64,000 nucleotides of DNA from Marinomonas profundi (GTDB lineage Bacteria; Pseudomonadota; Gammaproteobacteria; Pseudomonadales; Marinomonadaceae): NCBI RefSeq assembly GCF_020694005.1, contig NZ_CP073013.1, positions 2,552,578 through 2,616,577 on the forward strand. The letters run 5' to 3'. The notes under the pieces were generated by a model. That model worked only from the letters and a program-made list of their open reading frames with translations. It ran no database searches and was not told the DNA's origin. Shown here in pieces: positions 4,243-55,886 of the stretch. A program made the translations under genes and the position numbers. Position 1 is the first letter of the stretch, and each line of letters starts with the position of its first letter.

Positions 4243-4970
4243 GCGAAGTAATGACATTAACCGGAGATTGGCAAGACTATTTAGCCGATGAATTTGCCCA
4301 AGACTACATGCTGGCGTTACAGGCATTCTTGCAATCAGAGCAACAACATAAAACCTTATACCCTGCTGAACCTGAGTATTTTGCGGCGTTAAACGCGACG
4401 CCGTTTAGTCAGGTAAAAGTCGTGATTCTGGGGCAAGACCCTTATCACGGCGAAGGTCAAGCCCATGGTTTGTCGTTTTCGGTAAAGCCCAATATTAAAG
4501 TGCCGCCGTCTTTGGTGAATATTTATAAAGAGCTTGAAATGGATTTAGGCATTGTTCCGGCGCAACATGGTTTTCTGGGCCAATGGGCGGAGCAGGGTGT
4601 GTTGTTGTTAAACAGTGTGTTGACGGTAGAGGCGGGTAAAGCCGGTTCTCATCAAAACAAAGGCTGGGAGATCTTCACTGATAAAATCATCGCGCTGATT
4701 AATCAGCACCACCAAGGCGTTGTTTTTATGTTGTGGGGCGCTTATGCGCAGAAAAAAGGTCGCCATATTGATCGTCACCAACATTGCGTGTTGGAAAGCG
4801 TTCATCCATCGCCTTTGTCGGCTTATCGTGGCTTTTTGGGGTGCCAGCATTTTTCAAAAGCCAATGACTATTTAACCACGCTTGGCAAAACGCCCATACA
4901 ATGGGCATTGAAAGGCGTTGACGATAACATGGCTCACGCAGAACAAAAGGCGCAAATACCCTTGTTCTGA
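4239..4970 (+). CDS. ung: Uracil-DNA glycosylase, family 1
   Basis: Removes uracil from DNA, the first step of base excision repair. The catalytic water-activating motif GQDPYHG is at about residues 65-71 (Asp67), and the HPSPLS DNA-intercalation loop at about 189-194 contains the catalytic His189. Length (243 aa) is normal for the family. The listed start is a GTG that overlaps the upstream kinase stop; an ATG at 4251, four codons later, with GCGAAG upstream, is an equally good or better start. The gene end is included in a short tandem duplication (see 4962-5007). Confidence 0.95.
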   Translation: MSEVMTLTGDWQDYLADEFAQDYMLALQAFLQSEQQHKTLYPAEPEYFAALNATPFSQVKVVILGQDPYHGEGQAHGLSFSVKPNIKVPPSLVNIYKELEMDLGIVPAQHGFLGQWAEQGVLLLNSVLTVEAGKAGSHQNKGWEIFTDKIIALINQHHQGVVFMLWGAYAQKKGRHIDRHQHCVLESVHPSPLSAYRGFLGCQHFSKANDYLTTLGKTPIQWALKGVDDNMAHAEQKAQIPLF

Positions 4971-5007
4971 GTGAATGCGCTTGTTCCGAATGAGTGCTCT
5001 TGTTCTA
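4962..5007. repeat. 19-bp imperfect tandem duplication at the ung stop codon
   Basis: The unit TTGTTCTGAGTGAATGCGC begins with the last codons and stop of ung. It is followed by a diverged second copy (4981-4999) and a partial third (5000-5007). It resembles the stop-codon-linked repeats at 13321, 26980 and 55852. Confidence 0.7.
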
Positions 5008-5027
5008 GGCGAGCGGAGAGGCTTGCG

Positions 5028-5945
5028 TTATTTTTTTGTGTCTAATTGATAGGGCAATGGAAGTAGGCTAATGACTTGCTTGTCCAGCAGAAGTGATTGA
5101 GCATCGCTTGGCTCAATGTTTAAGATGATTTGTGCAAAATAAGTGTCTTCTACGGCACTCACATCAAGAACCTGTCCGATGTTTTTACCTTGCGCATCTA
5201 GAATGTCTTCTGCGTTGCTCGGTTGACCTTGCCATGTTGCTAGGGCCAGTTGTTTCTTTGATTTTCCTCGATACTGCATGCGCGCCACAATTTCTTGCCC
5301 TGTGTAACAACCTTTGGTGAAGCTGATGCCGCCTGTGCGTTGCATGTTCAGCCATTGAGGCAAGACTTGTTCGCTTTGGTCGAGTGAAATGAGGGGGCGC
5401 GCCGACAGTATGCTAAGCCCCGCGAGTGCCGTATTGTGCTCTGCAGTGGCGCTATTTTCCGCGCGATCAATAAGCCATTCGATGGTGAGTGGGTATTGGC
5501 ATAGGGTCATTTTAACGGTGTCTTTGTCTTGGCTCACTGCGAGATTTTCCGCGAGTGACTCTGGCGCGTGGTCGAGAGCGCTTTGCGTCAGTTTGGCATA
5601 AACTTGGTAGTGATCTTTGTCATTAAACAGTTCAGTTTTGAAAAAAACGGCGTATTTTTTCAAATGGGACAAGGTGCTATCGAGCAGGTCTTTGCTCATC
5701 AGCATGAGTATGTCTGCGTTATCTTGGAGTAGGTAAAAGTTACTGATAATACGTCCTTTTACGCTGCAAATTGCGCCATATAGACCATTTTCTGCGGTGA
5801 GTTTATGAATGTCGCAGGTGATTTGGCCTTGTAAGAACTTTTTGGCATCGACCCCTGTTACTCGCAATACTCCGATGTGGTGTTGCTTAGCGATGACGTG
5901 TTCATTTTGTAAGATGGCGTTAACGGTGTTGCTTAGCGAGGTCAT
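5028..5945 (-). CDS. ygfZ: tRNA-modifying/Fe-S cluster protein YgfZ (folate-binding)
   Basis: 305-aa GcvT-like protein. The diagnostic motif KGCYTGQE is at residues 211-218, with the essential cysteine at 213. YgfZ helps maintain certain Fe-S enzymes, including the MiaB tRNA methylthiotransferase, using tetrahydrofolate. The C-terminal beta-barrel part follows the motif. It is transcribed alone on the minus strand, about 100 bases upstream of the end of nothing else in that direction; in many gammaproteobacteria ygfZ sits near sdhE, which here is 13 kb away. Sure of family and function class. Confidence 0.93.
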   Translation of the reverse strand: MTSLSNTVNAILQNEHVIAKQHHIGVLRVTGVDAKKFLQGQITCDIHKLTAENGLYGAICSVKGRIISNFYLLQDNADILMLMSKDLLDSTLSHLKKYAVFFKTELFNDKDHYQVYAKLTQSALDHAPESLAENLAVSQDKDTVKMTLCQYPLTIEWLIDRAENSATAEHNTALAGLSILSARPLISLDQSEQVLPQWLNMQRTGGISFTKGCYTGQEIVARMQYRGKSKKQLALATWQGQPSNAEDILDAQGKNIGQVLDVSAVEDTYFAQIILNIEPSDAQSLLLDKQVISLLPLPYQLDTKK

Positions 5946-6044
5946 AGAGTGATTTCCATTAAAGGTCTTGTGTCATTGGTCGGCATGAATAACTGATCAG
6001 TAATGGCTATTTTAGGATTTTCAATAGTCTACTGGTCACCATGC

Positions 6045-7052
6045 TTATTGTTTGGTTTGTTCTGCGAATTGCGCTTTGATTTGCAGTAGCTTGGGCAATT
6101 CTTGCTGCAATAATGGTGGCAATGCTGGGTCAAAGTGCTTGCCGCTTTGCGCCATAATGTAATCAATAGCCTCTTCTGTTGACCAGGATTTTTTGTAGGG
6201 GCGCTCGCTGGTTAACGCGTCAAACACATCGGCTAGGGCCACAATACGGCCTTCAATCGGGATGTTTTCGCCTGCTAAACCATTTGGATAGCCTGTGCCG
6301 TCCCATTTTTCATGGTGGGTCATGGCAACCGAATGGGCCAGCTCAATCAGGTAGGAGCTAGGGTTGGATAAAATTTCACCGCCTATTTGGGTATGGGTTT
6401 TCATGATCTCGTATTCGTCTGCGGTGAGTTTGCCAGGTTTTAAGAGAATGTTGTCTGCAATACCGATTTTTCCGATGTCATGCATGGGAGCGGCCATCAT
6501 TAAATCGTCAGCGGACTCTTCACAAAAGCCGTAGGCCAAGGCGATGACTTTCGAGTAGCGGCTCATGCGCTGTACATGCATGCCGGTCTCGTTGTCTTTG
6601 TATTCGGCGGCGCGGCCAAGTCGCTGTATTAGGTCGATGTGGGTGATGAGCAGTTCGTCGGATCGGATCAAGGATAAATGGGTTTTGACCCTAGCCAATA
6701 CCACCGCAGGGACGATGGGTTTAATAATGTAATCAACGGCGCCTATTTCAAAGCCCTTGGCTTCATCAATGCTGTCTTTGAGGGCGGTGACAAAAATCAC
6801 GGGAATATGAGCGGTGGCGGGGTTTTGTTTGAGTCGCTCACAGACTTCTAATCCGGTCATTTGTGGCATCATGATGTCTAGCAATATCAGGTCAACGGAT
6901 TCTTTTTCGACCAAGGCCAATGCGTCTTGACCTGAGCGAGCGAAAGACAGGCGATAGTGAGCCGTTTGTAGAACTTGCCGCAAGACCCTTAAATTGGTGG
7001 GTTCATCATCAACCAATAGAATGCGAGGCGCGGGTTTGTTGCCGATTCTCAT
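6045..7052 (-). CDS. Response regulator with HD-GYP phosphodiesterase domain
   Basis: 335-aa protein with an N-terminal receiver domain (about 8-125; phospho-acceptor Asp59 in LILLDIMMP, Lys111) and a C-terminal HD-GYP domain (about 140-330). The HD pair is at 191-192 in HDIGKIG, followed by HHEKWDGTGYP at 246-256, so the catalytic metal ligands and GYP motif are intact. HD-GYP proteins of the RpfG type hydrolyse cyclic di-GMP. Its ATG overlaps the stop of the upstream hybrid kinase by four bases (ATGA), implying translational coupling and that the kinase is its partner. Expected effect when phosphorylated: lowering c-di-GMP, which would favour motility over biofilm. Confidence 0.92.
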   Translation of the reverse strand: MRIGNKPAPRILLVDDEPTNLRVLRQVLQTAHYRLSFARSGQDALALVEKESVDLILLDIMMPQMTGLEVCERLKQNPATAHIPVIFVTALKDSIDEAKGFEIGAVDYIIKPIVPAVVLARVKTHLSLIRSDELLITHIDLIQRLGRAAEYKDNETGMHVQRMSRYSKVIALAYGFCEESADDLMMAAPMHDIGKIGIADNILLKPGKLTADEYEIMKTHTQIGGEILSNPSSYLIELAHSVAMTHHEKWDGTGYPNGLAGENIPIEGRIVALADVFDALTSERPYKKSWSTEEAIDYIMAQSGKHFDPALPPLLQQELPKLLQIKAQFAEQTKQ

Positions 7053-10000
7053 TCACTGATCTCCTGTTGAGTCGTTTGTTTTGAGTTGTTTGTTTTGAGT
7101 TGATGAGTTAAGTCGTTGAGTTGCTCGATAGCAAGGTTAAAGTTGAAATCTGCAATGGCTTCGCCGATGTCGATTGCTTGTTTTTTCATCTCGCTTGGTA
7201 CATGCCTAATCAATTGTTGTATTGTTTCATCGTTAATTTCCCCTAAGCTGGCTGAGGTAATGAGTGCGTCGATTAGCGGTGGCAATTCCACCTTGTTGAG
7301 TGGTGTCGAGGGCGCCTCGGCTGTTTCGGCGTCGGTGGCATGGGTTTGCATTAAAGTCGCAAGCTCCTCTGAAAAACAATCTAATAAGGGTCGCAGTGCT
7401 TGAATATTGGCTTGGCATTGTTCTGCGTCTTCCGCGCTGGCGGCCATTTCTATGGCGGCCATTGTGTTCGATATGGAGAGTAAAGCCAGATTCCCTGAGG
7501 TGCCTTTGATCGCGTGGGCCAGTAGTCCGATCTGTTGGTATTCGTGAGTCAATACATGCTTTGTTAAGACATCGACTAGGTTGACATTTGTGGTCAAAAA
7601 TTTGGCCATTTCAGACAGATAAACCGCCAAGTCACGCCACAATAATAGGCCTTTTTCAAGGTGGATTTGTGTGTGCTTTTGTCGTGACTGAGGCGATTTT
7701 AAGCGTGACTGTTTTAAGTGCGACGGCGGTAAACTGTGTAAATCTGGCGTTTCGTCATGTGTTAAGTGATCTTGCGTTAAATGATTTTGAGCAACATTAT
7801 TCGATGTTTCAGTCAATACTCGAGCCATTTCGGCGGTTAAATTATGCAGATCGATCGGTTTGTTAGCAAAGCCGTCCATGCCCGCTTGTTGGGCGTCGCG
7901 CTTGTCTTCTATTAATACGTTAGCGGTGAGGGCGATGATAGGAGTGTGCGACAGTTGCTTTTCTTTTTCATACTGGCGAATGATTTGGGTCGCCATTAAA
8001 CCGTCCATTTTGGGCATTTGAATGTCCATTAGAATTAAATCAGGCTGTATAGACTTAAATTGCTCAACCGCTTCTAAGCCGTCTTTGGCGACAAAGATGG
8101 CATGGCCGTGACGTTTTAATAATAAAGTGAGCAAGGTAAGGTTTTGCTCAATGTCGTCTGCGATGAGTATTTTCTTGGGTTTAATGATCGTCAGTTGTGG
8201 CGTTGCAGTGTCAACGGGTAAATCGGATTCGATAAGGGGAAGATCAAAATAAAAATCACTGCCAATGCCGAGCTCACTACTGACCTGAATGTCTCCGCCC
8301 ATGAGTGTCACCAATTGCTTGGAAATACTGGTTCCCAATCCTGTGCCACCAAAGCGACGGCTCATGGACGCATCGGCTTGGGTAAAGGGGTCGAAGATAT
8401 GCGTTAGGCGCTCCTCGGCGATGCCGATCCCCGTGTCTTTTACCGCAAAGCGTAAGTGCTCGTTGTCTTGCTTGGTAATGGTGAGAGTCACGCTGCCTTG
8501 CTCGGTAAACTTGATGGCGTTGCCCAAAATATTCATTAACACTTGACGAATTCGGTCTTCCGCCCCCCAGTAAGAAGTGGCCACGTTTTGTGCGATGTGA
8601 AAATGCAGAGCCAAGCCTTTATTTCTGGCTTGCAGCCATAATGTTGAGATAACAGTATCGACCATGTTGCTGAGCATAAAGGGTTGTATGTCGAGTTCTA
8701 GTTTGTTTTTTTCTAATTTGGCGCTGTCTAGTATGTCGTTGAGAAGGTGCAGTAATGAACGTGCAGATTTACTGATGGTGGCTAAATGCTTTTTGTTTTC
8801 ATCTGTGGTGTCTGATTCTAATAAAATATCAGAAAAGCCAATAATGGCGTTCATTGGGGTGCGTATTTCGTGGCTCATATTGGCTAAAAATGACGCTTTG
8901 CTTTCGGCTGATGCCTCGGCTTTGGCTTTGGCTAGGCGCAGTTCATCTTCTATTTTTACGCGTTGCGAGATGTCTAGAATGACCCCGTCAATCCATTCCG
9001 GCTCGCCCTGTTCGTTATAAATGACAGAGCCATTTTCGAGCACCCAAACAGAGTGGCCATTTTTGTGTGTTAGGCGATATTCTATCTTGTAGGTGTTGTG
9101 CTCTTTGGTGGCTTCCTTGACGGTGTGGGCCGCCTTGTCTTTGTCTTCTGGGTGGATCATTTTGCCAAAAGAAATCCTATTGTTATAGAAGTCTTCAGTG
9201 GTCCAACCGGCGACATCGTAAATGGCATCGCTGACAAATAGCGTTGTCCATTCGTCGTCCATTAAACAGCGAAAGGAGGCGCCGGGAATGTTTTTGATCA
9301 GCGAGCTGAGTTGTTTTTCGCTGGCTTTGATGGCTTTTTCCATGGTTTTTCTGGCTGAAATATCACTAATAAAGCCAACAAATAATGTCTCACTGCCCGG
9401 AATGTCTACCAAACCGACGCCAAGGCGAATCGGGAACACCTTGCCGTTCTTGTTGACTGCTTCAATTTCGTACTCTGCGCCGGAAAAAGTCACTTCGTTG
9501 GTGTTACGAAAGTGCGTTAAGGCGGTGTTAAATGCCTCAGCATGATGAGTGGGAAATAACAGGTGAAAAGAGCGGCCAATAATGTCTTTTTCTGACCAGC
9601 CAAATAGGGTTTCTGCGGCTTTATTAAACGCCTTGATCATGCCATTGCTGTCAATGCTGATAATGGCGTCAATAGCGGTGTCTAAGGTGGTTTTTAGGCG
9701 TATTTCGCTGGCGGTTTTTTCTTGCAGTAGTTGCCTGTAACGCAGTTGAGAGGCGATGTTAGCGGCCAAAATAGACAGTAATAAAGTGATGGTCGCGACC
9801 ACAAACGAGAAGTAACCATTAGAGCGATCGCCAAGGTCGGCCATGTGGGTATGGCCATCGGAAATAAAGCGCGCTCCCGCCATGCCAGCATAGTGCATTC
9901 CTGAAATCGCCATACCCATGATCAACGCGCTGATGCTGTTGATCCATATTTGGCTGAGTCCTAAGGATAATCTTTTGACATAGTAATGGGTCGACAGAGC

Positions 10001-10516
10001 GATTGAGGCGAGCACCACGGCAATGACGAGAGACAGCACAAACCAGACAGGGTCATAGCGTAAATCAACACTCATTTGCATGGCGGCCATACCAATATAG
10101 TGCATAGCGCCAATGCCTGAGCCAACTAACACACCGCCTACCAACAGTTCCCAAAGCGTTAGGTTTGGCTTAATCAGTCGCTTTAGCGTGATGTAAGACG
10201 CCACAATGCTGGGCAGCAGAGATAACGCCGTTAACAAGGGGTCATAGGAAATCGCATGACCCATGTTGAATGCCAGCATGCCGACAAAGTGCATACTCCA
10301 AATACCGCCCGCCATGATAAAAGAGCCGGACACCAAGGCGATGTTCTTGTATTTTTCGATCACAATGTGCTGTGCGATGGAGGCAAAATGTAAGGCGAAA
10401 AAAGACGCGGCGACGGCTAATGACACAGAAAGGGCAACTAATAAAATGTTGTAATGGCCCATTGCAAGATGACTTGGGTCGACTTGTGTAACAAAAAAAT
10501 GATTAAGCCATTGCAT
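7049..10516 (-). CDS. MHYT-PAS-PAS hybrid sensor histidine kinase with receiver and Hpt domains
   Basis: 1155-aa inner-membrane kinase. The MHYT sensor (about 20-260, seven hydrophobic helices) shows SMHFVGM at 74-80, AMHYIGM at 137-143 and GMHYAGM at 206-212, the His/Met set proposed to bind copper and sense O2, CO or NO. Two PAS domains follow (about 275-390 and 400-520), then HisKA (His549 in SHEIRTPMN), HATPase (N-box NILGNAIKF, G-boxes DTGIGIA and GGTGLG), a receiver (about 782-900, Asp831) and an Hpt domain (His1000 in HAIKGTSGNL). The linker at about 905-950 is low-complexity and made of HLTQDHLTHDE-like repeats. Phosphate would pass His549-Asp831-His1000 to the HD-GYP regulator encoded just downstream. 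The C-terminal tail contains a 14-bp tandem duplication. Confidence 0.93.
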   Translation of the reverse strand: MQWLNHFFVTQVDPSHLAMGHYNILLVALSVSLAVAASFFALHFASIAQHIVIEKYKNIALVSGSFIMAGGIWSMHFVGMLAFNMGHAISYDPLLTALSLLPSIVASYITLKRLIKPNLTLWELLVGGVLVGSGIGAMHYIGMAAMQMSVDLRYDPVWFVLSLVIAVVLASIALSTHYYVKRLSLGLSQIWINSISALIMGMAISGMHYAGMAGARFISDGHTHMADLGDRSNGYFSFVVATITLLLSILAANIASQLRYRQLLQEKTASEIRLKTTLDTAIDAIISIDSNGMIKAFNKAAETLFGWSEKDIIGRSFHLLFPTHHAEAFNTALTHFRNTNEVTFSGAEYEIEAVNKNGKVFPIRLGVGLVDIPGSETLFVGFISDISARKTMEKAIKASEKQLSSLIKNIPGASFRCLMDDEWTTLFVSDAIYDVAGWTTEDFYNNRISFGKMIHPEDKDKAAHTVKEATKEHNTYKIEYRLTHKNGHSVWVLENGSVIYNEQGEPEWIDGVILDISQRVKIEDELRLAKAKAEASAESKASFLANMSHEIRTPMNAIIGFSDILLESDTTDENKKHLATISKSARSLLHLLNDILDSAKLEKNKLELDIQPFMLSNMVDTVISTLWLQARNKGLALHFHIAQNVATSYWGAEDRIRQVLMNILGNAIKFTEQGSVTLTITKQDNEHLRFAVKDTGIGIAEERLTHIFDPFTQADASMSRRFGGTGLGTSISKQLVTLMGGDIQVSSELGIGSDFYFDLPLIESDLPVDTATPQLTIIKPKKILIADDIEQNLTLLTLLLKRHGHAIFVAKDGLEAVEQFKSIQPDLILMDIQMPKMDGLMATQIIRQYEKEKQLSHTPIIALTANVLIEDKRDAQQAGMDGFANKPIDLHNLTAEMARVLTETSNNVAQNHLTQDHLTHDETPDLHSLPPSHLKQSRLKSPQSRQKHTQIHLEKGLLLWRDLAVYLSEMAKFLTTNVNLVDVLTKHVLTHEYQQIGLLAHAIKGTSGNLALLSISNTMAAIEMAASAEDAEQCQANIQALRPLLDCFSEELATLMQTHATDAETAEAPSTPLNKVELPPLIDALITSASLGEINDETIQQLIRHVPSEMKKQAIDIGEAIADFNFNLAIEQLNDLTHQLKTNNSKQTTQQEISE
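7074..7101. repeat. 14-bp direct duplication inside the kinase 3' end
   Basis: Two perfect adjacent copies of GTTTGTTTTGAGTT, about 25 bases before the kinase stop. They encode part of the polar tail (HQLKTNNSKQTTQQ). Since 14 is not a multiple of three, gain or loss of one copy would shift the frame of the last residues and disturb the ATGA coupling to the response regulator. Confidence 0.8.
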
Positions 10517-10767
10517 TAATTGTACTTCTACCTTTTCTATGGAGAACCAGCATGGTGTCTTTTATGTAGGCTATGGTAACACCTTCAATTTGTGGCGACA
10601 TCCTCAGGCGTAAAGCTAACGGTTTTTATGCGTTTTTTATACTAAAAAGGCCTATTTTCAAAAAAATATTGACTCAACTGCTGATTATTTCGACTATGAA
10701 ACGACAGGGTTTTATTGGCGCCAGTATGCCAAGTGAATAATAACCTCCCACATAATCTTCTGACAAA

Positions 10768-13193: not shown

Positions 13194-13320
13194 AATTTTC
13201 TCGCTCAAGCCGTATTTTTTGGCGCTTATAATGTCACCATTTTTGCCATGTATTTATTATGGATAACCGCTTCAAGAAGGCAAGGCTTGCCGCCTTGTCT
13301 GCTTGAAGCTGATTGTCGCT

Positions 13321-13422
13321 ATCTAAGCATACATACATCTAAACTATCTAAGCATACATATATCTAAGCATACATATATCTAAGCATACATATATCTAAG
13401 CATACATATATCTAAGCATACG
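13321..13422. repeat. 16-bp tandem repeat array running into the dehydrogenase stop codon
   Basis: Unit ATCTAAGCATACATAT, with four perfect copies at 13346-13409. These are flanked by a near-copy and a 9-base partial on the left (13321-13345) and a terminal copy at 13410-13422 that encodes the last residues and stop of the polyol dehydrogenase. The array therefore looks like repeated duplication of that gene's 3' end. It lies between the dehydrogenase and the AraC gene, so copy number could alter their co-expression. Confidence 0.95.
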
Positions 13423-14842
13423 TTGCCATATTGGTTTGAATGGCGCTCGTGAGCTGTGTCACAAAATCTGGGTATTCTGTTGGCAGATTGCCCCACAAAA
13501 AACGATCGGTGACAAAAGCCTGAATCCCCGCATCATCATTACTGAATGCGGCCAGTGAGGCTTTGTTTGGCTCATGATAAGGCGTGCTAAGCTTGCCTTG
13601 ATCCGATAGCTGTATAAAGGTGAACCAGCTGGCAATGCCTTGAATGGTTTTGCTAGGTGTCCGGCCTTTTTTATAGCAGCCTTCTAAGGTTGGAAACACA
13701 AATATTGGGAATTTAGCGTAGCCATCGGTGCAAATCCGTTCGATGGTGTCGCCAATGTTGGCGTTACTAAAGCGTTGTGCGATGACTTCGAAATACGCGG
13801 GTAGATCCACCACAGAATCACCGATAGCAGGAATCGAATCTTGCAAGATAAAGTCGGTGAAATACTGCTTTAATGCGTTATCGCGCATGGCTTCATCAAA
13901 ATAGGTGAGCCCTTTTAACGCCGCTTGGTAGGTAACACAAGTGTGGCCTGCGTTTAGGATGCGAATTTTGGCTTCTTCAAAGGGGTCGACTTTATCGACA
14001 AACTGCACGCCAACCAGATCAAGAGCGGGTTTTTGCCCTGCAAAATTGTCTTCTACTACCCATTGAATAAAATCTTCGCCCATCACGGTCATTTCATCAT
14101 CAATACCAAAGCGAGTGCGCACATCGTCAACGTGTTGTTGGCTGGGTTTTGGTGTGATTCTGTCTACCATTGAGCAAGGAAAAGAAACATGCTGCTCAAC
14201 CCATTTGATTAAGGCTTCATCTTGCTTGGCGGCCAAAAATTGCAGCAGCCCGGTGTTTAGCAATTCGCCGTTATGGCGCAGGTTGTCACAGCATAAAAGG
14301 GTGATTTTTGCATTGGATACTTGGCTGCGCTGCTTTAGACCTGCGTATAAAAAGGCGTAAAGCGTGTTACGACTCCCTTCCACATCCGCTTTAATAGCAG
14401 GGTGTTCAAGCATTAAACGACGGTTTTCGTCCAGATAGTAGCCGCCTTCAGTGACCGTTGATGTCACCAGCTGGGTACGTTCATCCGCCATCAGCGCATC
14501 GACTGCTTCGGGCGTTTGGGCGCCGTCAATTTGTTGTACGATAGAACGAATGTGCTCGTAGTGCGTTTCGCCATCAGCCGCCATGGTTTTTAGGACGTAT
14601 TCGCCTTGCTGTTGCATGAAGCGAGTAAAATGCTGGCTATCTTGTGGTCGTATATTGACGCCCGTAATGCCCCAATGACGCTGTGTGTCGTGGCTTAAAA
14701 GTCGGTCAAAATACACGGCTTGATGAGCGCGATGAAACGCACCAACACCCAAATGAATGACGCCAGCTTGAATGGTGTTTTTGTTGTAATCCTGTACAGA
14801 CAGCTGTTCACTGTTTAACGAGGCGTGTAAATAGTTGCTCAT
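13412..14842 (-). CDS. Polyol dehydrogenase of the long-chain mannitol/arabitol family
   Basis: 476-aa NAD-dependent polyol-specific long-chain dehydrogenase. Seen: the N-terminal nucleotide-binding HLGVGAFHRAHQ and the catalytic Lys-x4-Asn-x2-His set as KIRILNAGH. It oxidises a sugar alcohol to a ketose (mannitol to fructose, D-arabitol to D-xylulose, or sorbitol to fructose). With xylulokinase opposite and no fructokinase in the window, D-arabitol 4-dehydrogenase (DalD-like) is the best guess, but mannitol cannot be excluded. A longer reading frame runs to 14986 inside the ATPase gene. I choose the ATG at 14842 because it begins one base after the ATPase stop, with GAGGAAG upstream, implying coupling. 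Confidence 0.9.
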   Translation of the reverse strand: MSNYLHASLNSEQLSVQDYNKNTIQAGVIHLGVGAFHRAHQAVYFDRLLSHDTQRHWGITGVNIRPQDSQHFTRFMQQQGEYVLKTMAADGETHYEHIRSIVQQIDGAQTPEAVDALMADERTQLVTSTVTEGGYYLDENRRLMLEHPAIKADVEGSRNTLYAFLYAGLKQRSQVSNAKITLLCCDNLRHNGELLNTGLLQFLAAKQDEALIKWVEQHVSFPCSMVDRITPKPSQQHVDDVRTRFGIDDEMTVMGEDFIQWVVEDNFAGQKPALDLVGVQFVDKVDPFEEAKIRILNAGHTCVTYQAALKGLTYFDEAMRDNALKQYFTDFILQDSIPAIGDSVVDLPAYFEVIAQRFSNANIGDTIERICTDGYAKFPIFVFPTLEGCYKKGRTPSKTIQGIASWFTFIQLSDQGKLSTPYHEPNKASLAAFSNDDAGIQAFVTDRFLWGNLPTEYPDFVTQLTSAIQTNMATYA

Positions 14843-20102: not shown

Positions 20103-21746
20103 TTACGTGCTTATGTCTTTTGTGTGGCTGTTCTTGCGTTCAATAGAATGGGCGTTAAATAGAGTGGGCGTTAATATGGTTGGCGATGTGGCGGCTAACT
20201 TGTCTGGGTAGTCTAAGGTAAAGTGCAAGCCACGACTTTCTTTTCGGGACATGGCTGAACGTATGATTAGGTCGGCGACAACGGCAAGGTTGCGCAGCTC
20301 TAATAAATCATTGGACACCTTGTAATTGCTATAAAACTCGTGAATTTCGGACAATAACAAGTCGACTCTATGCTTGGCTCTTAGTAGTCGTTTATCGGTT
20401 CTAACGATGCCCACATAATCCCACATAAAGCGTCGTAATTCTTGCCAGTTATGGGTAATCACCACGTCTTCATCTGAGTTGGTGACCTTGCTTTCATCCC
20501 AATCAGGAATGACGACATCATTGGCTAAAGCATGGTTTTGGGTGATGTGCTGTGCGGCTGAGCGAGCAAATACAATGCATTCCAATAGCGAATTACTGGC
20601 TAATCGGTTGGCGCCGTGTAAGCCGGTGTAAGAGGTTTCGCCAATGGCGTAGAGGTTGTCAATATCGGTGGCGCTGTGTTGGTTGACGACCACGCCGCCG
20701 CAAGTATAGTGCGCTGCAGGCACCACAGGAATGGGGCCTTTGGTCATGTCATGGCCATATTCTAGGCAACGTTTGTAAATGGTTGGAAAGTGCTCTTTGA
20801 TAAACTCAGGGTCTTTGTGGGAGATATCGAGCAGCACATGGTGAACACCAAGGCGTTTCATTTCATGGTCGATGGCGCGCGCCACGATGTCCCGTGGGGC
20901 TAATTCTTCTCTCTTATCAAATTTGGACATAAAACGGGTGCCATCGGGCAATAAAAGCTTGCCGCCTTCCCCACGCACCGCTTCGGATATTAAAAAGGTT
21001 TTGGCTTTGGCGTCGTATAAGCACGTCGGGTGGAATTGATTAAACTCCATGTTGGCCACTCGACAACCGGCTCGCCACGCCATGGCAATACCATCGCCAG
21101 ACGCTGTGTCTGGATTGCTGGTGTAAAGGTATACCTTGCTGCTGCCACCGCAAGCGAGTGAAATGAAGCGACCATGGAAAACTTCGATCACGTCGTCATC
21201 TAGATTCAGGGCGTACACACCGACGGCACGATTGGGGCCAGCGAGGCCGAGCTTTTTCGTGGTGATAACATCTATGGCAACACGATCTGGGTAAAAGTCT
21301 ATGTTAGGGTGGTTGGTGGCGTTTTTGATTAGGGTTTGTGAGATCGCCAAGCCTGTTGCGTCGGCGCTGTGAATGATGCGTCTGTGGCTGTGTCCGCCTT
21401 CTTTGGTTAAGTGGTATTCTTCGCTTTCACCGTAGCGCGTAAAAGGAACGCCTTGGGAAATTAGCCAGTCGATGCTTTCTTTGGAACGTTCAACCGTAAA
21501 CCTGATGGCATCTGGATCACCCAACTCAGCGCCGGCGTCTATGGTGTCGTTAATATGTGAGTCGATAGTGTCTTTGTCCGACAGCACCGCCGCGACGCCA
21601 CCTTGGGCGTAAAGTGTCGACCCTTCACGGATGTCCGCCTTGGTTAAAATGGCGACGCGATGATGGTCCGCAAGCTCTAGGGCAAGTGTTAGCCCAGCAG
21701 CGCCTGCGCCAATAATAACGATGTCGTGTTTATAGTGTCGGCTCAT
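20103..21746 (-). CDS. nadB: L-aspartate oxidase
   Basis: 547-aa FAD enzyme that oxidises L-aspartate to iminoaspartate, the first step of de novo NAD synthesis (with NadA). Seen: the dinucleotide-binding [15 protein letters not shown] near the N-terminus, [13 protein letters not shown], the [11 protein letters not shown] and [11 protein letters not shown] segments, and [23 protein letters not shown] of the succinate-dehydrogenase flavoprotein family. Full length. It is divergent from rpoE, the arrangement found in E. coli and Pseudomonas. Confidence 0.95.
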
Positions 21747-26963: not shown

Positions 26964-26979
26964 GTTAAAAATATTTACA

Positions 26980-27109
26980 GTGACTTTCTAAAGTGACTCT
27001 CTAAAGTGACTCTCTAAAGTGACTCTCTAAAGTGACTTTCTAAAGTGACTTTCTAAAGTGATTCTCCAAAGTGACTTTCTAAAGCGACTTTCTAAAGTGA
27101 TTTTGAAAA
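26980..27109. repeat. 13-bp tandem repeat array abutting the argA stop codon
   Basis: Exactly ten copies of a 13-base unit, consensus GTGACTTTCTAAA, some with one to three changes, filling 130 bases up to the base before the argA stop. A further related copy (27115-27127, GTGACTTTGAAAA) lies inside the argA coding end, encoding part of IFSKSL. The array thus appears to have grown from the gene's own 3' end. Confidence 0.95.
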
Positions 27110-28420
27110 CTAGAGTGACTTTGAAAATATCTTAGAGTTACGTTGATAGTTATACAGAGCCTGCTTTTTGGTTGGCAAGCTGGCTAGGGTGGTTTCGCTG
27201 AAACCTCTTTCAATAAACCAATGAGCGGTGCGTGTGGTCAGTAGAAAGAGAGTCGACAAATGTTGCTGTTTTGCCGACTGTTCAATGCCTTTTAACAGGC
27301 GCTCGCCACGGTTTGAGCCTCGATAGTCTGGTGAAACGGCTAAGCAAGCGACTTCTCCTGCGTATTCTTGCTCAAACGGATACAAGGCGGCGCAGGCGAC
27401 AATCGCGCCGTCTCGTTCGATGACAATAAACCTGTCTATTTCGTTTTCCAGTAGTTCTCTTGAACGTCTGACAAGAATGCCTTTCTCTTCCAGTGGCGAC
27501 AATAGGGCCATCATGCCGCCGACATCGTCAATGTGAGCGGGGCGCAGTTGCTCATAACTGTCTTCGTCTATCATGGTGCCAGAGCCTTCACGGGTGAAGA
27601 GTTCTCGCAATAGACCGCCATTCTCGTTGTATGAAATCAAATGTGCTCTTGGCACGCTCTGGCGAACGGCTTGTACGCAGGCATCTAACGCCGCATGGGT
27701 GATGCTTGACAGAGACTTTGCGTTAAGGATGATGTCCGCGTCCTTGGTTAATAACTCCGAGTAAAGTTCGCCATTTTCTTTAAAAATGCCTTCTTCTTCA
27801 GAAAAAATAACCAGCTTGTCGGCTTTTAGTTGAACCGCAGCTTGGATCGCGACGTCTTCGCTTTTTAAGTTAAAGACTTCGCCCGTGGGGGAAAAGCCGA
27901 GATGCGGTAGCAGCACCATGTTGTCGTCTTCGAGCAAACGAAAAATCGCTTCGGTGTCGATTCGGCGAACCTCACCTGAGTGACCATAATCAACGCCGTC
28001 TACCACGCCTAACGGTCTGGCTATGACGTAGTTACCGCTGCAAACCTTTAGTCGTGCACCGTCCATTGGCGTGTTTGAAAGCCCCATAGACAGTTGGGCT
28101 TCAAGTTGCACGCGCACCGCCGCTGAGGCTTGAATGACGTCAAGCAGCTGATCTTGTGGGGTAATGCGATAGTTGTCTTCAACACGACTGACAATGTGCT
28201 TGCTTTCCAGTATTCGGTTGATTTGTGGTCGCGCGCCTTGTACAAGAACGAGACGAATTCCCAGTGAGTCCAAGAGCGCAAGGTCATGGATAATGCTTGA
28301 AAAATGCGCACATTCAACGGCTTCCCCAGGAATGAGAATCACGAAAGTTTTCCCCCTATGAGCATTGATATAGGGAGATGAATGGCGGAACCAGTCCACA
28401 TATTTTAGTTCTTCAGGCAC
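27110..28420 (-). CDS. argA: N-acetylglutamate synthase ArgA
   Basis: 436-aa enzyme acetylating L-glutamate, the committed step of arginine synthesis. The N-terminal amino-acid-kinase-like domain (about 20-290; FVILIPGEAV, LVLVQGARPQINR) is the arginine feedback site, and the C-terminal GNAT acetyltransferase domain (about 295-430; CLAVSPDYRGSNRGERLL acetyl-CoA loop) is catalytic. It starts at a GTG preceded by GAGGA, overlapping the end of argE by eight bases, so the two are one transcript. Confidence 0.95.
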   Translation of the reverse strand: MPEELKYVDWFRHSSPYINAHRGKTFVILIPGEAVECAHFSSIIHDLALLDSLGIRLVLVQGARPQINRILESKHIVSRVEDNYRITPQDQLLDVIQASAAVRVQLEAQLSMGLSNTPMDGARLKVCSGNYVIARPLGVVDGVDYGHSGEVRRIDTEAIFRLLEDDNMVLLPHLGFSPTGEVFNLKSEDVAIQAAVQLKADKLVIFSEEEGIFKENGELYSELLTKDADIILNAKSLSSITHAALDACVQAVRQSVPRAHLISYNENGGLLRELFTREGSGTMIDEDSYEQLRPAHIDDVGGMMALLSPLEEKGILVRRSRELLENEIDRFIVIERDGAIVACAALYPFEQEYAGEVACLAVSPDYRGSNRGERLLKGIEQSAKQQHLSTLFLLTTRTAHWFIERGFSETTLASLPTKKQALYNYQRNSKIFSKSL

Positions 28421-29731: not shown

Positions 29732-30694
29732 ATGGGTATATATATTATGGCTATTGAGCTAGAGCTAAAATTAATGCTGCAATCTGAGCATCTGACATCG
29801 GCCAGCAATTTTCTCGACAATATTTGTGCATCGTCCAATCACGATGGGCAATCGCGTTTGCCGACTCTGACTCTAATGAATGCGTATTTCGATACGCAAG
29901 ACGGCGATTTGATGCAAGCGGGTATGGCATTGCGTATTCGTGCGGTGAACGGCCAGTTTATACAGACGGTAAAAACTCGAGGCAGCAATCGTATTGGTAT
30001 GCATGCTCGTGGCGAATGGGAGTGGCAATTACCCAACGCTAGATTGGATTTAACTTTATTAACACAAGTGCCATTGCCGGAGTCGTTAGCAGACATGGCG
30101 TGGGGTGCTCAACTGGTGGAAGTGTATCGTACGGATTTCGAGCGGCAAGTGTGGAACATAGATTGCCATAACACGCAAATGGAAGTGGTGTGTGATCGAG
30201 GTTTGGTGACTTCTCCTTATGGCGAAGACGCGATTTGCGAGTTGGAACTGGAACTGAAATCGGGCGATGAAGCCGGGCTCTATGAGTTTGCTTTACAGTT
30301 GGCGGAGTGTGTTCCGGTGCAAGTGAGTCTTGTGTCAAAAGCACAAAAGGGCGTTCGGTTAAAAAATCGTCATATTGAATTTCCTGAAAAACTGCACAAC
30401 ACAACAGATGAAATCGCCTTGGCGGCTTACTGGTATGAGGTTTGGTTGGCGTATTGGGAGGCGATGTATTTTATGCAAGACGAGGCGCTTATGCAGCCTG
30501 TTCGGCATTCAATGAGCCAATTGAGCGACTGCTTACCTGACGACTTGGCGCTCACTGTGACGCGCTTAGATCAAATGTTAGTCGCGCAGTTAAAAGAAGA
30601 CGAAACGGCGATATTAAAAACCTTGGCGGGCATGACACAAATAGGTATTGTGATGCTCAACATCGGCAAATGGCTAAATCAACAAACGATTTGA
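29732..30694 (+). CDS. CYTH-domain inorganic triphosphatase (YgiF-like)
   Basis: 320-aa protein with an N-terminal CYTH domain (about 5-205). The ELELKL motif near the start is the ExExK triphosphate-binding signature, and CELELELKSGD and a KAQKG segment follow. YgiF of E. coli hydrolyses inorganic triphosphate and is also next to glnE. The C-terminal part (about 215-320) is helical, much shorter than the CHAD domain of YgiF, so CHAD may be truncated or replaced. Start may be ATG 29732 or 29747 (MAIELELKL). Confidence 0.85.
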   Translation: MGIYIMAIELELKLMLQSEHLTSASNFLDNICASSNHDGQSRLPTLTLMNAYFDTQDGDLMQAGMALRIRAVNGQFIQTVKTRGSNRIGMHARGEWEWQLPNARLDLTLLTQVPLPESLADMAWGAQLVEVYRTDFERQVWNIDCHNTQMEVVCDRGLVTSPYGEDAICELELELKSGDEAGLYEFALQLAECVPVQVSLVSKAQKGVRLKNRHIEFPEKLHNTTDEIALAAYWYEVWLAYWEAMYFMQDEALMQPVRHSMSQLSDCLPDDLALTVTRLDQMLVAQLKEDETAILKTLAGMTQIGIVMLNIGKWLNQQTI

Positions 30695-30721
30695 TTTTCT
30701 GCTAAGTTATTGTTTTTATAG

Positions 30722-30758
30722 CAAGTGATAGTTCTTGTACCAAGTGATAGTTACAATA
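30722..30758. repeat. Short direct repeat upstream of glnE
   Basis: CAAGTGATAGTT occurs at 30722-30733 and again at 30741-30752, a 19-base period, in the gap between the CYTH gene and glnE. Too short to interpret alone, but it fits the local habit of small duplications after stop codons. Confidence 0.5.
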
Positions 30759-42525: not shown

Positions 42526-42864
42526 AGGCACACGCCCATCAAGCAAACGGACACAACAGCAAAAAGCACGGGATAAAAAAGAAACGGGTAGGCGTAAAAT
42601 AAAAAAGTAAAATAAAAAAATAGAAATCGTAAAAGCAAAGAAGAGAAATCAAAGAAAGGCTTTACCGCCGCATCCCTGCAGCCACTGAATCTTCCTGAAA
42701 AGAGACAGAGCCTCCCTCCTGGAGGCGTAGGCAAATCCGTTCGCCCTCTGTCTATATTTACCCTAGCCTTTTTTGACACCTGATGCAACCTCACGTATCA
42801 ATTTACATTATCGATGGATGATCACTACAAGGTCATTTACAACAACACAAAACAAATTAAACGA

Positions 42865-44473: not shown

Positions 44474-45253
44474 ATGTCTCGTCAATTTATTGATTTATCG
44501 ATTTATCTTGAGAACGATGTCATCACCGATCCGCCGTTTATGCGTCCAGAGATTACCTATCAGACGCACGCGGAAACCGTTCCTGAAGCGAATCACTTTT
44601 TTCCGGGTGTTGCGGCGGATGAATTTCCAGGAGGTCATGGATTTGCGGCGGCTGAGACGGTGAAGCTCACCACTCACAATGGCACGCATTTGGACGCTCC
44701 TTGGCACTTTCACCCGACGATGAACAATGGCGAAAGGGCGATTACCATAGATGAAGTGCCATTGGATTGGTGTTTTCGCCCCGGCGTAAAGCTGGATTTT
44801 CGTCACTTTGAAGACGGCTATGTCGTCACCGCGGCGGATGTCGAGGCGGAACTGAAGCGCATTGGGTATGAGCTGCAGCCCATGGATATTGTCTTGGTTA
44901 ATACGGCGGCAGGAAGCGCCGTAGGGAATCCTGATTTTTGTAATATCGGTTGCGGTATGGGCTATGAAGCGACCATGTATTTATTGGAGCGCGGGGTGCG
45001 AGTAACAGGTACGGATGCTTGGTCGTGGGATGCCCCCTTTAGCCATACTGCTAAGCGTGTGGCCGAAACCGGTGATTACTCTTTAATCTGGGAAGGCCAC
45101 AAAGCGGGTCGGGATGTGGGGTATTGTCATCTGGAAAAACTGCACAACCTTGAAGCCTTGCCAGCCTTTGGTTATACCGTGGTTTGTTTTCCTCATAAGG
45201 TGCGCGGTGGTTCGGCTGGCTGGACTCGCGCTGTTGCTATTATCGATGGTTAA
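44474..45253 (+). CDS. Cyclase-family metal hydrolase (kynurenine formamidase/isatin hydrolase fold)
   Basis: 259-aa protein of the cyclase/KynB superfamily. The metal site HNGTHLDAPWH (His68, His72, Asp74, His78) is intact, and the second conserved block VTGTDAWSWDAPF and WEGHKAGRDVGYCHLEKL follows. Members hydrolyse amides or lactams (formylkynurenine, isatin). With the hydrolase just upstream it probably acts on the same pathway. A homologous pseudogene lies at 59791-60232. Confidence 0.87.
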   Translation: MSRQFIDLSIYLENDVITDPPFMRPEITYQTHAETVPEANHFFPGVAADEFPGGHGFAAAETVKLTTHNGTHLDAPWHFHPTMNNGERAITIDEVPLDWCFRPGVKLDFRHFEDGYVVTAADVEAELKRIGYELQPMDIVLVNTAAGSAVGNPDFCNIGCGMGYEATMYLLERGVRVTGTDAWSWDAPFSHTAKRVAETGDYSLIWEGHKAGRDVGYCHLEKLHNLEALPAFGYTVVCFPHKVRGGSAGWTRAVAIIDG

Positions 45254-45283
45254 GCGAAAAGTTCACTAAGCGAGCAATTCAAG

Positions 45284-49472: not shown

Positions 49473-49510
49473 GCAGGTTTTGGACTGACTGAAAAAGTGT
49501 ATTTTACAAA

Positions 49511-49636: not shown

Positions 49637-49656
49637 TCGCAAAGAGGATAGAAATA

Positions 49657-50610: not shown

Positions 50611-50660
50611 TGGTATTTAAGTAACAAAATGTGTAAACAAGTCGTTGGTATAAGAGATAA

Positions 50661-50707
50661 CGTTTTATGGGGGGAGCGGTAATTCTTTATTACTGCCCAT
50701 AAAAACG
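50661..50707 (+). promoter_or_regulatory. Long imperfect stem-loop between VOC and MFS genes
   Basis: CGTTTTATGGG pairs with CCCATAAAAACG around an inner GCGGTAAT / ATTACTGC stem. It has no T-tail. It could be a terminator of the VOC gene or a leader structure of the MFS operon. Confidence 0.45.
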
Positions 50708-50845
50708 GAAGGTGACGATACGTCGCTACCACGCAATAACAATAAACAAAGTGGATGGTAATAGTATGTTGATGATGTCTGTGAGATACGGGATTTTTTG
50801 CTTTACGGATCGAAGAGAACCAACCTTTCTTATGGGAGGTGTGCA

Positions 50846-52015: not shown

Positions 52016-52023
52016 GGTGAATA

Positions 52024-53109: not shown

Positions 53110-55502
53110 AACATCACTCATCGGCTTCATCAGAGCATGAATTTGACCCTAGTTCTGGTTCTTTTATTGAGCGAACGTTATTTAATCATCGTTTAATCGT
53201 TATTATCATTTGTGCCTTGGTGACGGGGTTATTGGGTTGGCAAGCAACCAAGTTAACCATTAATGCGAGCTTTGAAAAAACGTTACCAACTCATCAAGAG
53301 TATATTCAAAACTATTTGGAATATGAAAATGAGTTAACCGGTTTAGGCAATGCGTTACGCATTGCCGTGGTGAACCCCGAAGGCAGTATTTATGACGCTC
53401 ACTATCTAGAGCTATTGCGCCAGTTTAGTGATGAAGTGTTTCTATTGCCTAGCGTAGACCGAGTGCAAATGAAATCGCTTTGGACGCCTTCAACTCGTTG
53501 GATTGGCGTGACCGAAGAGGGTCTAGATGGCGGTCCAGTGATTCCTGAAAATTACGATGGCTCCGCGGCGAGTTTACAAGAGTTGAAAGCCAACGTGGCT
53601 CGCTCTGGGCAAATTGGTCAGTTAATCGCCGCCGATGAAGAATCCACCATTATCTATATGCCACTGTTAAGCGAAGAAGCGACAGGGGAAGCGTTGGATT
53701 ATGCCAAGTATTCAGACCTCATTGAAGGCCTGCGCGCCAAGTACCAAGCCAAAGGTTTGGACATTCATATTACCGGTTTTACCAAGGTCATGGGGGACTT
53801 GATCGAAGGCGTACAGGCGGTTTTGTGGTTTTTTGCCTTAGCGGTGGTGATTGCGACCTTTATGGTGTTTTGGTACACCCGCTGTGTGCGTTCAACCTTT
53901 CTAGTAGTGTTTGCCTCTTTGTTAGCCGTGGTATGGCAACTGGGTATTTTGCCGACGCTAGGTTACGTCTTGGACCCTTATTCAATCCTAGTGCCTTTTT
54001 TGGTGTTTGCTATCGGTATGAGTCATGGCGCCCAGAAAATGAACGGCATTATGCAGGATGTTGGCCGTGGTTTTGACAAGCTAGTCGCGGCGCGTTTTAC
54101 CTTTAGGCGTTTGTTTCTTGCCGGCTTAACCGCGTTGTTGGCCGACGCCGTTGGTTTTGCGGTTTTGTTGGTGATTGATATTAAAGTCATTCAAGAATTG
54201 GCGATCGCGGCTTCTATTGGTGTGGCGGTGTTGATTTTTACCAATTTGATTTTGTTGCCCATTATGCTGTCTTATGTTGGTGTCAGTCAAAAAGCAGCAG
54301 ACCGCAGTGTTATCAATGATATTGATGCTGAAAATATTAAAAAAGTGCCTGCTCTTTGGGTATTTTTAGACAAGTTTACCCAACGTAAATGGGCCATTGG
54401 CGCCTTGATAGCAGGGGCAGTTCTGGCCGTTGGGGCTTTCTCCCTAAGCACTCAATTGAAGATCGGCGACCTGGATCAAGGGGCGCCTGAACTACGTCAA
54501 GACAGCCGCTATAATCAAGATATCGCCTTTATGAATCAGCATTATGGCGCTTCCAGTGATGTGATGGCCATCATGGTTAAAACACCTGAAGGTCAGTGTT
54601 CCCAGTACGATACCTTGAAGAAAATAGACACGCTTGAGTGGCAATTACGTCAGTTGGCTGGCGTGGAGTCCACCAACTCTTTGGCGCTATTGTCTCGTCG
54701 TGTATTGTCTGGTTTAAATGAAGGTAACCCTAAATGGTACGAATTTTTACCCAACCAAGGAATGTTGAATTACATCACCGCGGGCGCACCACGGGGGTTG
54801 TACAACAGCAGCTGTAGTCTATTGACGGTTTATGTCTATCTGCAAGATCACAAAGCCGACACCTTGAGTAACATCGTTAATCATGTGGAAGCTTTTGCTA
54901 AAGACAATAATACCGACGATGTGCAGTTCCTTTTGGCGGCGGGCAGTGCGGGGATTCAAGCGGCCACCAATATCTCTGTAAAAGCGGCTTGGCACCAAAT
55001 GCTGTTTCTGGTTTATGGTGCGGTGGCTTTGTTGTCTCTTATTACATTCCGCTCGTTTAAAGCCGTTATTGTGGCGCTGCTTCCTCTGATGCTGACGTCC
55101 ATTATGGTTGAGGCTCTGATGGTGTTACTCGGCATGGGGGTGAAAGTCGCTACCTTGCCAGTTATCGCCTTGGGGGTAGGCATTGGTATTGACTATGCCT
55201 TGTATGTTTTATCCATTACCTTGGCCGGATTACGTCAAGGCACCAGTTTATCTCAGTCTTATTTAAGAGCGCTTAACTTCACCGGCAAAGTGGTGATGCT
55301 AACTGGCGTGACCTTGTCCGTTGGGGTGATTACCTGGGTGGCCAGTCCGATTAAATTCCAAGCGGATATGGGCTTGTTGCTCGCCTTTATGTTCATTTGG
55401 AACATGTTAGGTGCATTGATTCTATTGCCTGCACTGGCGCACTTTTTACTTAAGCCCAAATACCCAAGTGACACCAAAGTGCAGGATGAGTCTGCGATAT
55501 GA
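53106..55502 (+). CDS. MMPL/RND-family transporter
   Basis: 798-aa inner-membrane protein with two repeated blocks, each a periplasmic loop followed by a five-helix bundle (about 225-390 and 640-790), as in MMPL and SSD-type RND transporters. Seen: the FAIGMSHGAQKM and GVGIGIDYALYVLS motif segments with the proton-relay Asp in the second. It moves hydrophobic molecules using the proton gradient. Partnered here with YCF48, DUF1302 and DUF1329 proteins. Confidence 0.88.
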   Translation: MKHHSSASSEHEFDPSSGSFIERTLFNHRLIVIIICALVTGLLGWQATKLTINASFEKTLPTHQEYIQNYLEYENELTGLGNALRIAVVNPEGSIYDAHYLELLRQFSDEVFLLPSVDRVQMKSLWTPSTRWIGVTEEGLDGGPVIPENYDGSAASLQELKANVARSGQIGQLIAADEESTIIYMPLLSEEATGEALDYAKYSDLIEGLRAKYQAKGLDIHITGFTKVMGDLIEGVQAVLWFFALAVVIATFMVFWYTRCVRSTFLVVFASLLAVVWQLGILPTLGYVLDPYSILVPFLVFAIGMSHGAQKMNGIMQDVGRGFDKLVAARFTFRRLFLAGLTALLADAVGFAVLLVIDIKVIQELAIAASIGVAVLIFTNLILLPIMLSYVGVSQKAADRSVINDIDAENIKKVPALWVFLDKFTQRKWAIGALIAGAVLAVGAFSLSTQLKIGDLDQGAPELRQDSRYNQDIAFMNQHYGASSDVMAIMVKTPEGQCSQYDTLKKIDTLEWQLRQLAGVESTNSLALLSRRVLSGLNEGNPKWYEFLPNQGMLNYITAGAPRGLYNSSCSLLTVYVYLQDHKADTLSNIVNHVEAFAKDNNTDDVQFLLAAGSAGIQAATNISVKAAWHQMLFLVYGAVALLSLITFRSFKAVIVALLPLMLTSIMVEALMVLLGMGVKVATLPVIALGVGIGIDYALYVLSITLAGLRQGTSLSQSYLRALNFTGKVVMLTGVTLSVGVITWVASPIKFQADMGLLLAFMFIWNMLGALILLPALAHFLLKPKYPSDTKVQDESAI

Positions 55503-55858
55503 GTGATTTTGATGAAAAAGCACTTTGTCATATTGATGATATTGATGAAGGGGCGACAAAAGGCTTTTTGGAAAACGCCGCTGGGCACGATTTGTTTTTT
55601 GTCGTGAAGAAGGATGGCCAGTTATTCGCCTGGCGAAATGCCTGTCCTCATGTGAATGGGGCACCAATGGCGTGGCGTAAGGATGCTTATATGGATGCCA
55701 AAAAGCAACATGTCGCTTGTCATGCCCATGGCGCTTTGTTTGAACCAACCACGGGATTGTGTATCCAAGGACCTTGTCTTGGTAAGGCATTGGAGAAAAT
55801 CCCGATTCATATTAGCCAAGCGGGCGTGGTGTCAATTCAAGTAACAAACGTTAACTAA
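55499..55858 (+). CDS. Rieske [2Fe-2S] ferredoxin
   Basis: 119-aa Rieske protein with cluster ligands Cys49-x-His51 and Cys74-x2-His77 (CPHV and CHAH). It is too small for an oxygenase alpha subunit, so it is an electron carrier to an oxygenase. ATGA overlap with the RND gene. Its stop codon sits in a 15-bp tandem repeat. Electron partner unknown; the ring hydroxylase at 62136 is a reductase-driven type that may not need it. Confidence 0.85.
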   Translation: MSDFDEKALCHIDDIDEGATKGFLENAAGHDLFFVVKKDGQLFAWRNACPHVNGAPMAWRKDAYMDAKKQHVACHAHGALFEPTTGLCIQGPCLGKALEKIPIHISQAGVVSIQVTNVN

Positions 55859-55886
55859 ATAGACAGTAACTAAATAGACAGTAACT
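55852..55886. repeat. 15-bp tandem repeat spanning the Rieske ferredoxin stop codon
   Basis: Two perfect copies of TAACTAAATAGACAG (55852-55866, 55867-55881) and a partial third. The first copy contains the TAA stop of the ferredoxin gene. Same pattern as the arrays at 4962, 13321 and 26980. Confidence 0.85.

Follow-up and report, generated by a model that had tools for sequence, protein, structure and literature searches.

A 64,000-nucleotide stretch of the Marinomonas profundi chromosome (hereafter the window; positions 2552578-2616577 of a single-contig genome of 3,648,059 bases) carries short tandem arrays at the ends of several genes, among them those encoding uracil-DNA glycosylase (UDG; ung), a mannitol/polyol dehydrogenase, ArgA, a Rieske protein and a hybrid kinase. 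This raises the question of whether the arrays share a common process and, if so, whether that process starts at the stop codon or whether stop codons are the places where its products survive. An original prediction, made from the window sequence, proposed a shared process such as slippage or end-joining at 3' ends that escapes selection. We found that the association with stop codons is confirmed and extends beyond the window. Two features of the array excess had not been foreseen: only units of about 13-21 bp contribute to it, and this lineage shows it far more strongly than the sampled congeners. Most likely, small duplications are unusually frequent in this genome, and gene ends are the places least harmed by them.

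Enrichment of tandem arrays at stop codons

For the genome-wide analysis we used a held-out sample of 60 stretches of 20 kb spread across the genome outside the window (1.2 of 3.65 Mb), which together with the window amount to 1.264 Mb. Loci with L numbers (e.g. L015:18805) denote sampled stretches, and G numbers denote genomes (G000 for the present one, G029 and others for relatives). Arrays were called by Tandem Repeats Finder (TRF), dropping periods below 9 or above 40 (below 7 in the Markov comparison) and merging overlapping rows. Genes were predicted by our own dicodon-model caller.

Altogether, we identified 148 arrays with a period of 9-40 and a score of at least 50, including 34 that overlap one of 1094 stop codons, while 9 arrays overlap the 1098 starts. 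At the same score threshold, 159 arrays were counted against 3 in one order-2 Markov simulation. As a null model, each noncoding array was placed randomly wherever it covered no more than 20 coding bases; arrays exceeding this limit, including three of the 34 stop overlaps, were dropped. With the window included, 31 noncoding stop overlaps were observed versus 8.3 under random placement. Outside the window, a scan of repeats against both codon types gave stop overlaps for 27 of 97 noncoding arrays (7.8 expected, Poisson P 6e-8) and no enrichment at starts (7 vs 8.4 expected), so the tendency noticed in the window holds in the held-out sample.

A TRF-free lag test, restricted to gene ends with at least 40 bp free downstream, was positive for a repeat of 13-21 bases at 12.3% of 691 such ends, compared with 0.7% in shuffles; the corresponding fractions elsewhere in this genome were 6.1% of 760 starts and 0.6% of 669 gene interiors. 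With a wider window at stops the test was positive for 123 of 690 ends, and for 4 in the shuffle.

The arrays consist of head-to-tail copies of a short unit, in the range of about 10-60 bp that characterizes bacterial minisatellites or variable-number tandem repeats (VNTRs). Most are short, with fewer than three copies in 88 of the 117 noncoding arrays, and 20 of the 117 have a 100% match. The units differ from gene to gene and have little in common beyond their A-richness, in agreement with the earlier view that this is not one mobile repeat. A motif common to the units was sought and rejected: only weak, mostly A-rich k-mers emerged, some of the top 8-mers coming from one array that is present in four copies. 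This array was found in the window (42594-42650) and at L010:13682, L016:2693 and L034:12446, in each case 68 bp past a gene that in the window encodes an IS66-family transposase; it is a repeat carried by this insertion sequence.

Lineage and unit-size specificity

The congener sample comprises 1.54 Mb from seven genomes and is uneven (868 kb from G029, 65-200 kb from each of the others). We observed 117 arrays per Mb in this genome versus 36 in the congeners, and stop overlaps at 34 of 1094 versus 4 of 1333 stops; outside the window the contrast is 30 of 1043 versus 4 of 1333 (score of at least 50; Fisher P 1.5e-7). In 250 kb of Escherichia coli K-12 there were 12 arrays per Mb, and none of 211 stops was overlapped. 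At a score of at least 45, units of 13-21 bp account for 120 arrays per Mb here versus 36 in congeners, whereas the densities are 13.4 versus 13.0 for units of 9-12 bp and 15.8 versus 7.8 for units of 22-40 bp.

The lag test at gene ends gave 1.5% of 465 in G029, 1.7% of 121 in G039 and 2.5% of 118 in G020, the three far relatives, and 6 of 128 in four nearer ones (G006, 1 of 37; G034, 3 of 38; G025, 1 of 27; G038, 1 of 26). Around starts, the same test was positive for 0-6% in the congeners. With the wider stop window, the near four had 10 of 127 and the far three 28 of 704 (shuffles 1 and 6, respectively). The nearer relatives may share the trait weakly.

The lower size limit is abrupt. Counting noncoding duplications at 85% identity in intergenic pieces of at least 40 bp, we found 1 case at 12 bp and 15 at 13 bp (3 of these being extra copies of the IS66-linked array), and the counts remained high through 17 bp. 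Exact duplications at 10 to 17 bp numbered 4, 0, 1, 9, 4, 5, 4 and 3 here (the 9 includes four IS66-linked copies) and 5, 1, 1, 2, 1, 2, 0 and 0 in the congeners. A period peak seen by TRF only would be distrusted, because short two-copy arrays fall below its score limit; the step at 13 bp is, however, backed by both the exact and the 85% counts.

An artefact of assembly, repeat calling or gene calling is one conceivable source of such differences. The only check of the caller was a single 50-kb stretch of E. coli, in which it recovered 42 of 44 annotated stops and 37 of 44 starts and added no extra stop, and genes in the four small congener sets were predicted with a model derived from this Marinomonas genome. 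Nevertheless, point differences between copies, sites shared by orthologues, the agreement of the TRF-free test and the equal 9-12 bp class in both sets make an artefact extremely unlikely.

Arrays inside the window

The arrays at or near gene ends in the window are the following.

4961..5006, plus strand: ung array, 19-bp unit, 2.4 copies; the first unit contains the TGA stop (gene 4239-4970)
7067..7102, minus strand: hybrid kinase array, 14-bp unit, 2.6 copies; inside gene 7049-10516, out of frame, 18 bp before the stop
13319..13421, minus strand: mannitol/polyol dehydrogenase array, 16-bp unit, 4.8 copies, 100% match; the first unit contains the TAG stop (gene 13412-14842)
20136..20174, minus strand: array of a gene for an FAD-binding protein, 16-bp unit, 2.4 copies; out of frame, 33 bp before the stop (gene 20103-21746)
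26979..27127, minus strand: argA array, 13-bp unit, 9.7 copies, plus an 18-bp register; spans the TAG stop (gene 27110-28420)
30704..30752, plus strand: array of a CYTH-domain gene, 19-bp unit, 2.6 copies; begins 9 bp past the stop (gene 29732-30694)
45251..45281, plus strand: weak array of a cyclase-family gene, 16-bp unit, 1.9 copies, 80% match; starts at the TAA stop (gene 44474-45253)
55852..55886, plus strand: Rieske array, 15-bp unit, 2.3 copies, 100% match; the first unit contains the TAA stop (gene 55499-55858)
62096..62124, plus strand: 15-bp unit, 1.9 copies; 12 bp past the stop of gene 61139-62083

The five repeats named in the original prediction (ung, polyol dehydrogenase, argA, Rieske and hybrid kinase) are present where it had placed them, and the weak array at 45251-45281 and the 16-bp array before the stop of gene 20103-21746 had been missed. 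Domain searches agree with the gene names: we found a UDG domain in ung, a mannitol dehydrogenase domain in gene 13412-14842, AA_kinase and GNAT domains in argA, a Rieske domain in gene 55499-55858, and an MHYT-PAS-HisKA-receiver-Hpt architecture in the hybrid kinase, with the Hpt match slightly below the curated cut-off. The eleven best relatives of the window ung among named genomes are all Marinomonas.

The proposal that the first unit contains or touches the stop codon stands for ung, the polyol dehydrogenase and Rieske. For argA it is true only in the 18-bp register, since in the 13-bp register about 1.15 units of the merged array precede the stop. Across the sample, 36 of 42 stop-overlapping arrays with a score of at least 40 have a first unit that contains or adjoins the stop; in the other six, including argA, the stop is just past that unit.

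Two further arrays of octamers adjoin each other at one end of the window, with 9.2 copies of TGCACTCT at 1-74 (touching the window edge) and 14.4 copies of TTTGCTGG at 101-215, downstream of a sodium:solute symporter gene. An exact pattern search found two tandem TTTGCTGG units at no other place in the genome, and arrays of 7-8 bp resembling these octamers occur at L042:6631 and L042:8653. In a separate case, the 15-bp unit TGACGCTGACCGGTT appears seven times at a spacing of 261 bp (L009:14487-16081) within a 6741-bp open frame, which probably encodes a repeat-domain surface protein, although this is a guess.

Position relative to stop codons, terminators and reading frame

To locate the arrays relative to the stop codon, we related their starts (score of at least 50) to the sequence available. 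There were 27 starts in 11.8 kb between -15 and 0, and 21 in 13.9 kb between 0 and +20. In 5-bp bins, the density was 1.7, 3.1 and 2.1 starts per kb over the 15 bp that end with the stop codon, and 0.8, 2.0, 2.1 and 1.2 over the next 20 bp. Further downstream the density dips to 0.3 at 20-40 bp, rises to about 1.3 at 40-80 bp, and is 0.2-0.7 beyond. Upstream of genes it is 1.1-1.6 at 10-40 bp before the start codon and 0.4-0.7 further out. The profile fits insertion anywhere from the last codons to the terminator, and again past the terminator. Terminator-like hairpins, counted at gene ends with at least 60 bp free downstream, have a median starting distance of 61.5 bp where an array is present and 33 bp at the other ends, which indicates that material was inserted between stop and terminator. 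Loss of the terminator at array genes was considered and rejected, as hairpins are present at 14 of 45 array ends and 127 of 577 others (P 0.19). By type of gap, array density is 0.90 per kb in convergent, 0.63 in codirectional and 0.38 in divergent gaps.

Inside genes, a strong reading-frame filter is apparent: the period is divisible by three in 55 of 61 coding arrays but in 36 of 117 noncoding or edge arrays. Among the six out-of-frame coding arrays, three are within 80 bp of the stop. When repeats of one unit inside one locus are counted once, the 53 distinct coding arrays include 11 at no more than 100 bp from the stop and 11 equally near the start, where 5.6 would be expected in each case. 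This symmetry, together with the scatter of array starts from -15 to +20, speaks against the idea that the repeats are nucleated at the stop codon itself.

Origin of the repeat units in orthologous genes

Orthologue comparisons cover the array genes for which a stretch of a relative was available, and the alignments were read by eye. No array was seen at the ung stop in any of the 12 Marinomonas relatives examined, one of which has a contig ending about 50 bp past the stop. The mannitol dehydrogenase unit is single-copy in all four relatives shown, and at the position of this array GTAT direct repeats lie 16 bp apart in L063. The Rieske array corresponds to a 30-bp insertion past the stop that is absent from all five relatives. 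At L015:17871-17920 (array 1), all ten congeners have one copy, whereas at L015:18805-18861 (array 2) eight of ten have an array of at least two copies at the same stop, and at L014:6451-6507 all ten have 2-4 degenerate copies at the same stop; taken together, the latter two sites show 1-4 copies across the ten congeners fetched. In G029 there is one copy at each of the three sites. In this species-level comparison, copy number differs between species at all three aligned sites; at one of these sites this genome alone departs from the others. These copy numbers indicate that some sites are old and undergo turnover, while others arose here. In several orthologue sets the unit was copied from local sequence. 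Rieske and, against G029, L015 array 1 gave the impression of novel inserted sequence; for L015 array 1 this was rejected when closer congeners showed the local sequence. For some array genes (e.g. L013:16014 and L044:3060) the relative shown has no alignable flank and the origin of the unit is unreadable.

At L014:6451-6507, the orthologous array seems by eye to be in frame in G025 and G038, forming a repeated C-terminal tail, while in this genome the unit is 14 bp long and the protein is cut short by it, a case of gene ends altered through array turnover.

We also analyzed sequence identity beyond the duplicated units. Of 35 exact duplications, 15 contained another complete unit and were left out; the remaining 20 had on average 4.0 further identical bases. 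Dropping the four IS66-linked copies left 16 independent arrays with a mean of 5.0 versus 0.94 expected, and at least four such bases in 12 of the 16. The extra identity is as expected if a short direct repeat guided the duplication step.

Two other explanations were considered. A selected function at mRNA 3' ends (for example slowing decay, offering stops in more than one frame or acting as small RNAs) would agree with the finding that some arrays recur in other species of the genus at the corresponding stop, though in different copy numbers, and transcription of bacterial repeats has been proposed (PMC8161180). On the other hand, the units are unrelated, copy number goes down to one in relatives, the ung and Rieske stops of the relatives carry no array, and noncoding periods have no modulo-3 preference, so that we regard such a function as very unlikely. 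A mobile element (a transposon or casposon-like) that was inserted and then lost, leaving target-site duplications of 13-18 bp, could account for the narrow range of unit sizes. Arrays of up to 9.7 copies and the units of local origin argue against it, and the IS66 element at the four-copy array is the sole element seen with an array, no search having been aimed at cas1 or such elements; we consider this scenario highly improbable.

Proposed local duplication and probable tolerance of gene ends

Replication slippage between short direct repeats, with subsequent turnover, is a known source of VNTRs and minisatellites. It shares with the present arrays the local unit, the partial extra copy and the copy-number variation between species. 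To our knowledge, neither a lower limit of 13 bp nor a strong intensification in one lineage belongs to the standard slippage picture.

On balance we favour a local duplication of 13-21 bp that was intensified in this lineage and whose survivors gather where they cost least. Short minisatellites would form by repeated local tandem duplication, often where a few bases already recur at unit spacing, presumably by slippage, and copies would then be gained and lost. The process would operate genome-wide, much more strongly in this Marinomonas lineage than in the sampled congeners. Where a unit spans the stop, the stop retained in its first copy would preserve the protein, and the stretch from stop to terminator would tolerate added length. 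In coding sequence almost only multiples of three would survive, more often near gene ends. The excess, its size limits, the location of the arrays and, for several orthologue sets, the local source of the unit are direct observations. A common process behind the repeats, as first proposed, is thereby supported, and escape from selection is supported as the likely reason for their location. The stop codon is then, in our somewhat guarded judgement, a tolerated place rather than a nucleation site; the scattered array starts, the distant terminators and the start/stop symmetry all lead to this reading, and we infer that tolerance causes the stop bias.

Several observations weigh against this explanation. 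In the congeners 2 of 33 noncoding arrays are at stops versus 31 of 100 here (P 0.004), although tolerance alone predicts an equal stop share. Near stops, array density exceeds that of the remaining intergenic DNA by a factor of 2.7 to 14 in four of the five AT classes (in the last class no match falls on the stop side, and the labelling assigns ties to stop). This would mean either that tolerance is much more restricted than one would expect from intergenic DNA as a whole, or that duplication is targeted to some extent. In addition, plain slippage does not predict the step between 12 and 13 bp (1 vs 15 cases), 8 nt of the Rieske unit are not visible in relatives, 3 of the 16 independent arrays have no further identical bases, and a partial extra copy may have arisen after the first duplication, mimicking a guiding repeat. 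Finally, loss of a repair nuclease was rejected as the cause, as all six nuclease, topoisomerase and mismatch-repair families tested are present, many other repair genes being outside the test. PF02739 (5' nuclease family) was matched twice in G000, and xseA, sbcB, recJ, topB and mutS were each found, all as open frames with no stop within the match, though presence does not prove activity. From the frame sizes of 940 and 266 aa we take the two PF02739 matches to be PolA and Xni.

Some of these points would instead suit targeted mutagenesis, in which a process at the end of transcription or translation (stalled RNA polymerase, R-loops or nicking) duplicates 13-21 bp near stops, the lower limit reflecting a physical ruler. 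It would account for the stop-proximal density at equal AT, the stop share above that of congeners, the abrupt onset at 13 bp and the A-rich coding strand of stop arrays (0.398 vs 0.319). However, coding arrays are equally frequent near gene starts and ends, which is the main reason for preferring tolerance over targeting of 3' ends, and array starts are scattered around the stop and raised before start codons too. Head-on gene bias was not significant (20 of 38 leading vs 60%, P 0.41), and distance from the origin, inferred from GC skew, has no link to the arrays. Targeting seems rather unlikely. Ku-dependent end-joining, the other process named at the outset, is unlikely, as Ku had no match in any of the 48 genus genomes searched.

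Comparison with known repeat systems

The nearest known system is, by analogy, that of the archaeal Borg extrachromosomal elements, whose repeats have perfect units and were studied as arrays of at least three units (PMC9879509). Like the present arrays, Borg repeats are scattered genome-wide, with a unit that differs almost everywhere, A-richness and flanking partial copies. They are lineage-specific, being virtually absent in the host, and in open reading frames they have lengths in multiples of three, as do most coding arrays here. About half are intergenic or have the first unit in or partly in gene ends, which is also the case here. In contrast, our arrays are on a bacterial chromosome and mostly have two or three imperfect copies, and stop-codon enrichment is measured here against a null model.

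The bacterial repeats described by Subirana and Messeguer (PMC8161180) similarly have a restricted unit size, unrelated sequences and strong differences between related species, but with units of 20-21 or 52 nt and at least four copies rather than about 13-21 nt. The unit-length peak in our data is at 13-17 bp, not 20-21; 52 nt is outside the periods counted. In the main text of that paper, the terms 'stop codon' and 'intergenic' do not occur, and the available passages of a survey of prokaryote satellites (PMC6749651) do not mention stop codons or Marinomonas. In the open literature searched, judged mostly from listings, we found no account of bacterial tandem repeats being enriched at stop codons.

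The likeness to Borg repeats leads to a bolder possibility, namely a duplication activity aimed at gene 3' ends and intrinsically limited to units of at least 13 bp, a bacterial counterpart of Borg repeat-making driven by an enzyme or by a changed replication or termination factor. We consider it improbable; if true, about one in eight gene ends with free downstream sequence would have been rewritten by this activity.

Since one genome of the genus is strongly affected and its relatives have low rates, a comparison can be used to look for what gives rise to minisatellites. The 13-bp minimum offers a lead on the mechanism that can be tested, and a true likeness to Borg repeats would open the question of such repeat-making in bacteria. 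The arrays also mark stop codons as sites at which changes in length persist and can alter the tails of proteins.

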